Assembly (NCBI GenBank): GCA_030065635.1
Contig: JASJDJ010000030.1
Coordinates: 1 to 56,892, forward strand
Reading direction: 5' to 3'
DNA length: 56,892 nucleotides
From: Xenococcaceae cyanobacterium MO_188.B32
Lineage (GTDB): Bacteria; Cyanobacteriota; Cyanobacteriia; Cyanobacteriales; Xenococcaceae
Shown here: one piece after another, positions 38,828 to 42,781 of the stretch
Numbering within the stretch: the first letter of the stretch is position 1
Layout: each line of letters starts with the position of its first letter
The notes under the pieces: model-generated
The model's database searches: none
Seen by the model: only the letters and a program-made list of their open reading frames with translations
Told to the model about the DNA's origin: nothing
Translations under genes and position numbers: made by a program

Positions 38828-40315
38828 CTAAGGAGCTTCTGAAAAGAACTTTTTATAATCGTTGAGTTGGTATAAAAATGGTTTCAAGAGGAGCGATTCA
38901 GTGTCTGAATTTTGGATATTATTGTCTTGACTCCCTAGCAATAAACCAATTAGGAAGGCACACAATACCGCTACAAAAGATACAGCTATAGCTGAGACGA
39001 TAGGTATTTTTTTATTCCATATTTTTGGCTGATTACCACTATAAAAAACGTCATTTATTGACACGGAATCAAACACTAACTCGTGGAATGGAAGAAAAAA
39101 ATCTGTTTCTTCTTCATTAAGAAAACTTAATCGATCGGAGTATTGTTCTAAGGCTTCATCTGACATATAGGATTCGAGTTTACCAGAAAGATCGATACCT
39201 AAAAGATCGGCAATCTTTTCTTCGAGAACGAAAACATCTTTTTTAACAGAAAGTATTCTGTCAATATCTTTGTCATAACTAGAATAATAAGAATCTTTAG
39301 CATTAACAAAAGTCAACTTAAGATACATATGAGCTAAAAGTTTTTGTATTTGTTGTAACTTGACCGACTGCCCAAGAGCATCACTTTTTTGAACATTCTT
39401 ATCTTGTAACGGTGAAAAACTAATTTTTACTTCTTCTTCATTTAAAATAGTGAAATATTGTTCGATATTTATTTTATCAAAAACTCTTTGAACTAATTCA
39501 AAATTATTTTTTTCATTGACTCCTAGAAAAAATATATTGTAAAGATAAATACCCAACATATGAAAATAATAAATGCAAGGGTTTATATTTTTATAATAAA
39601 TACATCTATTCAGTAAATTACTGCTATTGTAATCAAAATCCGACCGCTCTATATTACTTGAAGTTGGAGGAATATATTTCAGTTCTACAATCTTATTTTT
39701 AGGATTTACACTAGTTACCCGAAAGAGAAAATTTCGACTTTGATTTATTTGTTTAATAATAATCCAATCATTTTTTTTAACAACACTCTCATGTTTATCA
39801 AAGAAAGAATATTTATATCTATATCGATTAATATCTTGTTCTGTAAAATCACCTCGGTCTTCAATTTTATCCAAAATTATTTCTCTACGCATACTAGAAA
39901 ATAAACTAGGTATGTAAGGATTTCCTTGATAATTATGCATCATAATTTTGGTAAAAACCAAATCATTTCTCAGATCGTTATGATAATTTATTTGCTCGTT
40001 ATATATAACAAAATCTGTATCTAATTCCTTTGGCTCTTGAGAAGCTCCTATCTTTCTAAAAATAATTTTTTTGGGATGTATTTCTGTAAAATAGAAATCA
40101 GAAGGTTTTTTTAAATGTTCTTCAACTAGCTTAGTTAGATTAAAAAAGTACCAAAATCCTCTAGCAAGACGTATATGATATTGATTTGTAGAACAAGTAA
40201 ATAATTCTTCTAGATAATCGATGAATTTTTTTGGTTCTTTTGGTGGATAATCTCCTGGAATATCACCTTTCATTAATGGATTATTATCGATTTTATAACC
40301 AAATTCTTTAGCCAT
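38828..40315 (-). CDS. membrane-anchored pseudokinase-like partner of the tandem kinase
   Basis: The 495-residue protein has one TM helix near the C-terminus (about 437-461) and a short tail. It aligns by eye with the second kinase half of the upstream gene. ARGFWYFFNLT matches QGLRYLHKAG. FYFTEIHPKKIIF (74-86) matches YLHLDLKPANIF, so the catalytic HxD is lost. FHMLGIYLYNIFF (251-263) matches DLFGIGAIAFNLI. FSPLQDKN (300-307) matches FEPFQDKN, and YLKLTFVNAKDSYYSS matches MLYKAEDTFYNSS. It also has a matching beta-rich insert (KKNDWIIIKQ). No glycine loop or DFG is seen. It starts 15 bp after the kinase stop, so the two are cotranscribed. The pseudokinase reading is inferred. Confidence 0.6.
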   Translation of the reverse strand: MAKEFGYKIDNNPLMKGDIPGDYPPKEPKKFIDYLEELFTCSTNQYHIRLARGFWYFFNLTKLVEEHLKKPSDFYFTEIHPKKIIFRKIGASQEPKELDTDFVIYNEQINYHNDLRNDLVFTKIMMHNYQGNPYIPSLFSSMRREIILDKIEDRGDFTEQDINRYRYKYSFFDKHESVVKKNDWIIIKQINQSRNFLFRVTSVNPKNKIVELKYIPPTSSNIERSDFDYNSSNLLNRCIYYKNINPCIYYFHMLGIYLYNIFFLGVNEKNNFELVQRVFDKINIEQYFTILNEEEVKISFSPLQDKNVQKSDALGQSVKLQQIQKLLAHMYLKLTFVNAKDSYYSSYDKDIDRILSVKKDVFVLEEKIADLLGIDLSGKLESYMSDEALEQYSDRLSFLNEEETDFFLPFHELVFDSVSINDVFYSGNQPKIWNKKIPIVSAIAVSFVAVLCAFLIGLLLGSQDNNIQNSDTESLLLKPFLYQLNDYKKFFSEAP

Positions 40316-40330
40316 TTTCTTTTTGTTTTT

Positions 40331-42781
40331 TCAATAATTATGTAAACTTTTAAGTTGCTCTAATAAAATAGCTGTTGGTTCTTTATTAGTAGACTTGCTA
40401 GAATTGTAAAAAGTATCTTCTGCTTTGTACAGCATACATTTTAAGATTAATTCAACAATTTGTCTTGGTACGTATTCTGATGAGTTTTTATCTTGAAAAG
40501 GTTCAAATATCTTAGTTAATCCCGGTTCGCTAGACTCAAAACTATAAACACTTTCATATTTAGCAATTAATTCCGCAACAGTTGAATTTTGAGTATCATA
40601 TTTTCTAATACTTTCGTAAAAACGCTCTGGAGATTCACCACAGGTGATTAAATTAAAGGCAATAGCACCTATCCCAAATAAATCGGTTCTTTTCCCTTGA
40701 ATTTTATAAAATTTAGCTTGATTTCGTTTACATGGTTTTAAATAAAATTCGTCATTTTCATCGGATTTAAGATATATATATACTGGAGCGTTTTTTTCTA
40801 ACTCTATATCTATTCGCTCGATTTTATAAGACTTGTCATTATGTTTTCCGAAGATTACATAATCACCTTTCTCAATGATTGTATCTCGAAAAATAGGGTC
40901 TCTTATAACCAATCTTTTCTGAGTATCATTGTCAATTTCCACATTAGCAACATCAAAAAAGTATTTTTGTTCTGGCGATCGATAATGTAGAGTACCTAAA
41001 GGTAATCGATTATATTTACCCAATAAAGATTGTGGTTTTAAATGATTTTTTTGTAGAAATCCGAGGTCGCCAATCGCGCTTTGGAGTGTGCTATCGAGTT
41101 CTCTATTAAAAATATTTGCTGGCTTTAGATCGAGATGAAGATAACCAGCTTTATGTAAATACCTAAGTCCTTGGGTAATATTTTCTAAATAAGGCAAGAT
41201 AGTAGCTATACGTTCCGCAAAATTAAGATTACTAAGAAGGTCGTATCCATTTAGTTCGTAAATTTTACTTTCAAGATTTTTTTGCTCTTTTTTCTCTTTA
41301 ACTTTTTGTCTGATATATTCCTTGGCTTGTGCTTTGGATTTAAATATTATTGGTTCTATATTTTTGTGATGAATAAGCTTAGAAGATTGAATTGCATATT
41401 TACCAATTCCATCCTCTAAAAGTTCTTCAAGAGTTTTATCATATAACTCCATAACCAGAGCGTAGTTGGATAATCTTTCAATGGAGTTTAATTGTGTAAA
41501 TGTCTTATAAGCATTTGAATCTAGAAATTCTGTTGTCCCATCTATTGTCATCACAATACCGGGAATTTGCCTGACATTAAAGTTCTCCAATTCGTCTATA
41601 ATCTCATTGGAAGACCTTATTTCTGCCTCAAAACGTTCCTTAATGACTTCATTAAGTTCGGAATCATCGTATTTATATAGTATTTTAAAGGCATATTTAT
41701 TAGGATATCTACTATTACCTCCCTTATGGATTAGATAAACTACACCATAATTGCCATTGCCAAGTTCAATCGGTTGATTATTTTCATCTAGAACAAAATA
41801 ATAAGTATTTTGTTGACCATTAGCATTGGTTGTAAATGAATATTTTTCTTCTATAGTATAGTTGTATTTTTTTTGAGATAAAGGCGAGGGAATCTCTTCT
41901 AACAATTCCAACCATTCCAAGACTGAGGACGGACGATCTTTTGATTCTATTTCCATGCCTTTAAGAATGGCATCATTTACTCGATCGCTAATTTGAGGAT
42001 TATAGTGCTGGGGAGGAGGTAATTCTTTTCCTTGATACCTTGCTTGTGAAGATATCGGGTGTTCTTTTGTGAGTAAATAATAAAGTGTTGCTGCTAGAGC
42101 ATAAACATCCGTAGCAGGAATATCCCATGGTTCTAATGGAGTATAACCGGGGGTGTAAAATTGTTGATTCACACCCAATACTTCTTCCCGATAAAATCTG
42201 GCTGCCCCAAAATCAATCAAAACTACCTGATTAGAATCTGCACGCAGCATTATGTTTGAAGGCTTGATATCATGATGAATTATCCTCTGATAAATTTTGC
42301 CTTCTTCATTATGAAGATAATTTAGAGCAGAACCGATTTGCTGTATATATTTTAAAGCGTCTTTTTCTGATAAAGGCCCTTTTTCTCGAACATATTTTTT
42401 GAGATTTTGTCCTTCAATATGTTCTAAAAATAGACACCAAAAATCTCCAATTCTTTCATAGCCTTCTACTTTTACTATATGAGGATGTTCGAGACCAGCT
42501 AGGTTAGCAAATTCGTTAGTTAATACCTCATTTTTTAATGTCCTCGAACCATTAACATTATCATTAATCGTTTTAATGACAAATAATTTTTGCGACCATT
42601 CACCTTTAGCTAGATAAGCAATACCGCAGCCTCCGCTCCCAATATTTTTAATAATCTTGTAGTTATCCTTTCGACCCATAAATACTTCTCCTTCTTGCCA
42701 ATAATTTATGGGAATCGTATTAATTTTGCTGTTAGTTTCAGAATTTTCTAAGTTATATTCTGAATTCAAGTTACTTTGCAT
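40331..42781 (-). CDS. tandem dual Ser/Thr protein kinase
   Basis: The 816-residue protein has two kinase domains. Kinase 1 (about 41-295) has the glycine loop GSGGCG (48-53), K70, HHDIKPSN with D171, DFG at 190-192 and the PLEPW activation-segment end. Kinase 2 (about 325-795) has GNGNYG (341-346), K366, HLDLKPAN with D551, DLG (572-574) in place of DFG, and RSPEQ. It carries two large inserts: about 400-530, partly coiled coil, and about 605-698, a beta-rich segment. No TM helix is seen, so it is probably cytosolic and docks on the membrane partner encoded next. AT-rich relative to neighbours. Both domains look able to bind ATP. Confidence 0.85.
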   Translation of the reverse strand: MQSNLNSEYNLENSETNSKINTIPINYWQEGEVFMGRKDNYKIIKNIGSGGCGIAYLAKGEWSQKLFVIKTINDNVNGSRTLKNEVLTNEFANLAGLEHPHIVKVEGYERIGDFWCLFLEHIEGQNLKKYVREKGPLSEKDALKYIQQIGSALNYLHNEEGKIYQRIIHHDIKPSNIMLRADSNQVVLIDFGAARFYREEVLGVNQQFYTPGYTPLEPWDIPATDVYALAATLYYLLTKEHPISSQARYQGKELPPPQHYNPQISDRVNDAILKGMEIESKDRPSSVLEWLELLEEIPSPLSQKKYNYTIEEKYSFTTNANGQQNTYYFVLDENNQPIELGNGNYGVVYLIHKGGNSRYPNKYAFKILYKYDDSELNEVIKERFEAEIRSSNEIIDELENFNVRQIPGIVMTIDGTTEFLDSNAYKTFTQLNSIERLSNYALVMELYDKTLEELLEDGIGKYAIQSSKLIHHKNIEPIIFKSKAQAKEYIRQKVKEKKEQKNLESKIYELNGYDLLSNLNFAERIATILPYLENITQGLRYLHKAGYLHLDLKPANIFNRELDSTLQSAIGDLGFLQKNHLKPQSLLGKYNRLPLGTLHYRSPEQKYFFDVANVEIDNDTQKRLVIRDPIFRDTIIEKGDYVIFGKHNDKSYKIERIDIELEKNAPVYIYLKSDENDEFYLKPCKRNQAKFYKIQGKRTDLFGIGAIAFNLITCGESPERFYESIRKYDTQNSTVAELIAKYESVYSFESSEPGLTKIFEPFQDKNSSEYVPRQIVELILKCMLYKAEDTFYNSSKSTNKEPTAILLEQLKSLHNY

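Follow-up and report, generated by a model that had tools for sequence, protein, structure and literature searches.

A probable degenerate kinase C-lobe that accompanies a protein kinase in cyanobacteria, in one chain or as a separate gene

The stretch of DNA analyzed here, in the following referred to as the window, comprises 56,892 nucleotides of Xenococcaceae cyanobacterium MO_188.B32 (GenBank assembly GCA_030065635.1, contig JASJDJ010000030.1, positions 1 to 56,892). On its minus strand, it encodes a protein with two kinase domains, which we call kinase 1 and kinase 2, followed by a second, smaller protein, which we call the partner. Our sequence comparisons support the view that the partner is a second, degenerate version of a kinase C-lobe and shares its β insert with kinase 2; such a copy follows kinase 2 in frame in 13 of the 17 loci found. 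The gene pair is probably a split kinase, in which an ancestral fusion of kinase 2 and a degenerate C-lobe was separated by one fission, while the partner may still dock to the kinase and recruit it to a membrane. An initial annotation of the window by eye had already described the two open reading frames (ORFs), the stop-to-start gap of 15 bp and the two kinase domains of the upstream gene, and our analysis agrees on all of these.

Homology of the partner to kinase 2

In a blind hhalign scan with 80-column windows moved in steps of 40 columns, 7 of the 132 partner/kinase 2 pairs reached P ≤ 0.002. All of these are collinear, at offsets between 120 and 200 columns, and fall into three separate regions; given that the scan windows overlap, they amount to about three independent matches. 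None of the 132 pairs with reversed kinase 2 reached this threshold (minimum 0.01), and neither did any of the 621 pairs from six decoy comparisons, in which three neighbor families were each set against the partner and against kinase 2. Kinase 1 matches the same segment: its windows over helix E and the catalytic loop match the equivalent partner window at P 0.00029 and 0.0019. These are the only two of the 77 kinase 1-partner pairs at P ≤ 0.01, and the best four such pairs contain no insert windows. Likewise, when the partner and kinase 2 were divided into thirds, at cut points picked after the hhalign path was known, matched thirds gave P values of 0.0017, 0.0022 and 0.009, compared to 0.035–0.5 for mismatched and 0.31–0.41 for reversed ones.

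The insert is common to both proteins and lies at the same place. In an AlphaFold2 (AF2) model of the fused relative L057 (predicted local distance difference test, pLDDT, 76; predicted template modeling score, pTM, 0.62), both halves have the same succession of secondary structure elements, the insert included, and in either half a short helix precedes the last insert strand. A forced hhalign path, which lays partner residues 21–373 on kinase 2 residues 185–505 (G001b numbering), pairs the catalytic loops, the inserts and the helices F of the two proteins; the global mode of hhalign yielded trivial alignments. We base the claim of homology on the windowed comparison, the match to kinase 1 and the shared insert, and it is because the insert is shared that we regard kinase 2, rather than any kinase, as the likely source.

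Much of what the initial annotation had read by eye thereby holds. The proposed collinear order of the C-lobe elements (helix E, catalytic loop, insert, helix F and an LK...(S/T)(Y/F)Y block) is supported by the windowed scan; FTEIHPKKI is in register with LHLDLKPAN; the β insert and the LGIYLYN stretch of helix F align in the forced path and also when the secondary structures within the AF2 model of the fused relative are compared; and the NAKDSYYSS/KAEDTFYNSS pair is conserved on the partner and kinase 2 sides. A further landmark, PLQDKN/PFQDKN, is not conserved across the partner family; the likeness is probably due to chance, and we dropped it as evidence of homology.

Kinase 2 possesses the glycine loop, Lys, Glu, catalytic Asp, Asn and metal-binding Asp of protein kinases: G36, G38, K61, E82, H244, D246, K248, N251, D267 and G269 are invariant in eight aligned rows, with HLD and DLG variants instead of HRD and DFG. 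The kinase 2 part of the L057 model matches solved kinases, best of all PLK1 (4j52) with Z 21.8 and a root mean square deviation (rmsd) of 3.7 over 269 aligned residues and thus has a bilobal kinase fold. In kinase 1, which is a canonical kinase of the Hanks type, K70, D171, K173, N176, D190 and G192 are invariant in seven aligned rows.

In the partner, the catalytic Asp is replaced by Glu and the matching stretch has no DFG, in line with the loss of catalytic residues noted at the outset. E78 and P81 of its degenerate loop are invariant in a 10-row alignment as well as in an 8-row alignment that includes G200, and they read alike in five later-added rows. Some 45 residues lie ahead of helix E, and the N-lobe sheet is absent from the models (partner model: pLDDT 70, pTM 0.71), according to which the partner is a kinase C-lobe only and not a whole bilobal pseudokinase. 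Of the 'membrane pseudokinase' first proposed, the kinase homology stands for the C-lobe, on the strength of windowed profiles and with a whole-profile comparison that is non-significant by itself, and the label of a complete pseudokinase falls with the missing N-lobe. The transmembrane (TM) helix at the C-terminus is evident in the window partner (Kyte-Doolittle mean of 2.88 over 19 residues from residue 442). At E ≤ 0.1, no NCBIfam or PADLOC model matched the partner, and at E ≤ 1 no Pfam model did either; plasmids, viral contigs and PDB chains (E ≤ 1) likewise yielded no match. The features of both genes are compiled in Table 1.

Table 1. Features of the kinase gene and the partner gene in the window, and of an ORF upstream of kinase 2 in Nostoc-family loci (coordinates of the latter refer to the loci named)
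Feature	Coordinates	Strand	Basis
Kinase gene (kinase 1 + kinase 2), 816 aa	40331..42781	minus	ORF; Pkinase 1.2e-53, three stretches (Pfam)
Kinase 1, Hanks-type Ser/Thr kinase, residues 41-248	42038..42661	minus	PF00069 stretch
Kinase 2 domain with intact catalytic residues (residues 306-815)	40337..41866	minus	Invariant positions, 8 rows
Kinase 2 catalytic loop HLDLKPAN	41114..41137	minus	Sequence and 8-row alignment
Kinase 2 β insert, SPEQ region to helix F	40697..40954	minus	Matches partner insert, P 0.0009-0.0022
Junction: TGA stop + 15 nt, in frame with partner ATG	40316..40333	minus	Corresponds to linker position of fused relatives
Partner gene (kinase-like domain, C-lobe only, + C-terminal TM helix), 495 aa	38828..40315	minus	ORF, models, windowed profiles
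Partner helix E equivalent, residues 43-68	40112..40189	minus	Predicted model; segment P 0.0017 with kinase 2
Partner degenerate catalytic loop FYFTEIHPKKII, residues 74-85	40061..40096	minus	Window P 0.00029 with kinase 1
Partner β insert, residues 143-241	39593..39889	minus	Predicted model
Partner helix F equivalent, residues 246-262	39530..39580	minus	Predicted model and hhalign path
YLKLTF..SYY block, residues 330-346	39278..39328	minus	Matches kinase 2 LKCMLYK..TFY, window P 0.0009
Partner C-terminal TM helix, ~residues 438-461	38933..39004	minus	Hydropathy
Upstream ORF members (Nostoc family), ~250 aa	L060:7814-8569, L085:5556-6341, L086:9101-9874, L087:5171-5902, L088:9219-9956		Conserved

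Fused and split loci

In each of the 17 partner loci, kinase 2 lies directly ahead of the partner. Besides the 13 loci in which both form one frame (G010, G001:C240, G026, G049, G200, G593, G589, G643, G553, G573, G640, G524 and G608), three are split (the window, G001:C94 and G074:C173), and in one (G571) a stop codon and an internal deletion disrupt the gene. The partner frame is open in 16 of the 17, one of which, that of G026, is cut by a contig end before the C-terminus and was omitted from the partner tree. A further kinase 2 at G074:C352, where the contig ends about 15 bases later, is not included in the 17. In the broken G571 copy (L089:7367-8101), about 368 residues are missing relative to L060; this deletion fuses kinase 2 and the partner, with breakpoints close to corresponding positions in their C-lobes. 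Genome G001 harbors both versions, the split G001:C94 and the fused G001:C240 (L054, L057).

The split forms cluster together, with support of 100/100 in the kinase 2 tree (16 rows) and 100/99 in the partner tree (15 rows, with a long-branch warning), next to two fused forms, those of G010 and G001b. In both trees, the root was set at the midpoint. Since just 3 of the 17 loci are split and these group beside fused forms, the two-gene form looks derived, and one fission would be the simplest history. At the junction, the stop codon and spacer of the window keep the frame, and the split locus G001a agrees with it in frame and spacer length but not in the bases, whereas the partner of G074 is in another frame and starts 8 nt past a TAG. 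A stretch of TM grade (19-residue mean 2.2–2.9) is found in all three split partners and in none of the 13 fused ones (maximum 1.65; G026 without its C-terminus), so that the TM helix of the initial annotation proves to be a feature confined to split forms.

Kinase 2 and the partner occur together in every genome with strong matches, and we saw neither gene apart from the other in the loci found, in keeping with their proposed association. Among the relatives, the partner was found in 6 of 100 genomes and kinase 2 (E < 1e-100) in 6 of 150, and these are the same six. In the Nostoc family (217 genomes), the partner profile matches 11 genomes, or 10 without G619, which we excluded from the counts (E 5e-4, a 46-aa open frame and no kinase 2 match); kinase 2 (E ≤ 1e-30) is found in the same 10. 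In a sample of the phylum (386 genomes), strong matches to both occur together only in G000 and G200. These surveys scored a limited number of candidates per genome, up to 10 for kinase 2 in the relatives, 7 in the Nostoc family, and 4 and 3 in the phylum. Six phylum genomes of one genus yielded weak matches to the partner profile (E 3e-6 to 7e-6, profile positions 255–392); they involve another protein (L072:4940-5815), response-regulator-like by eye, whose helical C-terminal part is aligned with the partner from helix F to the end.

Upstream of kinase 2, the loci differ. Kinase 1 precedes it in frame in the window genome, G001, G010, G026, G049 and G074, whereas the Nostoc-family loci that we read have no kinase 1 in frame. 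Directly upstream, they instead carry an open frame of 244–283 codons, except for L062, and in G571 this frame is shortened. The encoded protein belongs to no known Pfam family, and one representative had no match in the six kinase 1 genomes, including that of the window, or in G643.

Alternative explanations and related systems

Several results weigh against the interpretation given above. In whole-length tests, BLASTP gave a non-significant 0.097, and whole-profile hhalign comparisons, the very test by which the initial annotation had wanted its proposal judged, were not significant either (P 0.27, 0.37, 0.052–0.14 and 0.11); the corresponding value for kinase 1 and the partner is 0.054, at the catalytic loop. 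With a hidden Markov model (HMM) of the kinase 2 C-lobe, the best partner scored 0.065 and was outranked by a decoy at 0.0069, and a partner HMM found kinase 2 (hmmsearch) at 0.046 and 0.27, non-significant though ranked first and second over the decoys. A block-permutation test on a home-made profile alignment was likewise not significant (Z 0.2–2.2), the real score being reached by 5 to 150 of 200 permutations across nine settings. In the windowed scan, the next-best pair (P 0.01) lies off the collinear line, 7 of the 621 decoy pairs reach P ≤ 0.01, and four of these seven, which pair kinase 2 with a histidine kinase family, are at 0.0021–0.0028 barely over the threshold used. Furthermore, the fused L057 model, with its pTM of 0.62, comes without interface confidence, and midpoint rooting leaves the direction, fission or fusion, to inference. 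The whole-length results are what one would expect if the partner had no relation to kinases and consisted of helices and a β-barrel that accompany kinase 2, perhaps for sensing or as a substrate, its kinase likeness being twilight noise. Such a reading could also draw on the structure searches, as Foldseek and VIA-align showed no kinase among the 50 rows listed for the partner model. The matches listed fit the β insert (N-terminal barrels of F1-ATPase, a reductase FAD domain and Upf1; VIA Z ≤ 7.2), with the VIA-align rows lying mainly at about residues 139–244 (best Z 7.2, rmsd 3.5, 94 aligned). We do not count the absence of kinases among the rows listed as evidence. With collinear matches that withstand reversed and decoy controls, a kinase 1 match to the same segment and an insert at the same place in both proteins, we consider an unrelated domain unlikely.

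Somewhat less likely still is a conditional split, in which read-through of the in-frame TGA continues to yield some fused protein. The frame is indeed kept across the TGA and the 15 nt in the window and in G001a, and most of the loci found have the fused form, but an in-frame arrangement in two related genomes can be chance, and the G074 partner starts in another frame. A phage-defense kinase like MAD6 or PglW was suggested by the MAD6 models, which of all NCBIfam and PADLOC models score best on the kinase gene of the window and whose proteins likewise combine two kinase-like domains in one chain (NF047741, MADS defense system). The window gene, however, scores 165.6 bits against a curated cut-off of 460, and its scores rest on the kinase domains; the partner, as mentioned, has no counterpart in either collection. 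In the MAD6 proteins of two relatives (L096 and L097), a degenerate kinase domain appears by eye to lie ahead of an intact one, and by our own reading their domain order and N-terminal region are unlike those of the window gene. We dropped the link to MAD6 after this check and regard a defense kinase as highly improbable. The least probable explanation is a functionless, decaying remnant; the initial annotation had called the partner a decayed copy. Its lost catalytic motifs, its branches, longer than those of kinase 2, and the broken G571 locus would fit, but the idea is largely refuted by constraint. Between the window and G001a, the ratio of nonsynonymous to synonymous substitutions (dN/dS; Nei-Gojobori script) is 0.15 for the partner and 0.12 for the kinase gene; by segment, it is 0.04–0.05 over partner residues 1–150, followed by 0.21, 0.10 and, for the last 95 residues with the TM helix, 0.38. 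Between the fused G001b and G010, where synonymous distances exceed 1, it is 0.16 for the partner and 0.08 for kinase 2. Because of this purifying selection, the partner appears constrained rather than decaying, and the open frames and the co-occurrence with kinase 2 likewise argue against decay.

Among known systems, Gcn2 comes closest in the way it works, with a bilobal pseudokinase domain ahead of the kinase. The bacterial pseudokinase MviN is not known to have a fused parent kinase. In Gcn2, the degenerate kinase domain adjoins the active one and is required for high activity (PMC4014428). Both domains lie in one chain, whereas the partner is a C-lobe only, placed after the kinase, and has a gene of its own in 3 of 17 loci. 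The bacterial pseudokinase families ActPs1-3, GLW, CP1, DYD and DLHK were reviewed in 2025 (PMC12599244). In the part of that review available to us, no family consists of a lone C-lobe copy joined to the kinase it came from, and the text of the review contains neither 'C-lobe' nor 'tandem'. MviN, of the ActPs3 family, likewise has a degenerate kinase domain in a transmembrane protein, but its dimer interface is formed by the N-lobe, which the partner lacks (PMC12599244). The CP1 pseudokinases, mainly annotated in cyanobacteria and proteobacteria, are described there as all linked to COG3899 and devoid of TM regions (PMC12599244), while the split partner has a TM helix and Pfam detects no COG3899 or ATPase domain in either window protein. 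In plants, the tandem kinase-pseudokinases typified by Yr15 also combine a kinase with a degenerate one in tandem; these are resistance proteins, and the likeness is one of build-up only (PMC6170490). The published literature, as far as it was accessible, offered no description of this kinase and C-lobe arrangement. The claim of an undescribed two-gene module made at the outset stands to that extent; its two-gene form, by contrast, is limited to the three split loci and looks derived.

A putative docking subunit and its implications

In the split kinase that we favor, the partner would have arisen by duplication of kinase 2 itself and would have been separated from the fused ancestor in a single split. 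The association with kinase 2 may persist, now from one chain to another, and the partner would act in it as a docking and allosteric domain without catalytic function. Since the N-lobe is missing, ATP binding of the usual kind is not expected, and what is retained should be the ability to bind a protein. Candidate targets are kinase 2, a substrate of kinase 2 and other proteins; we favor kinase 2 because of the likely origin of the partner from it, their constant company and the persistence of the pair past the split. In the split lineage, the lysines ahead of the TM helix would leave the kinase-like domain facing the cytoplasm, with a tail of about 34 residues across the membrane, and the partner would recruit the soluble kinase 1-kinase 2 protein to this membrane. 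As a more tentative generalization, an inactive C-lobe-only kinase copy with its insert could serve as a built-in regulatory or docking domain, which fission and the gain of a TM helix turned into a trans-acting membrane subunit.

If this is true, a natural experiment would have taken place, in which a kinase regulator that acted within its own chain became a membrane module of two genes. Regulation by a lone degenerate C-lobe could be tested in cis and in trans, as fused and split versions coexist in G001, and a route by which a soluble bacterial kinase becomes membrane-bound would be open to direct test. The partner would also add a family to the surveys of bacterial pseudokinases.

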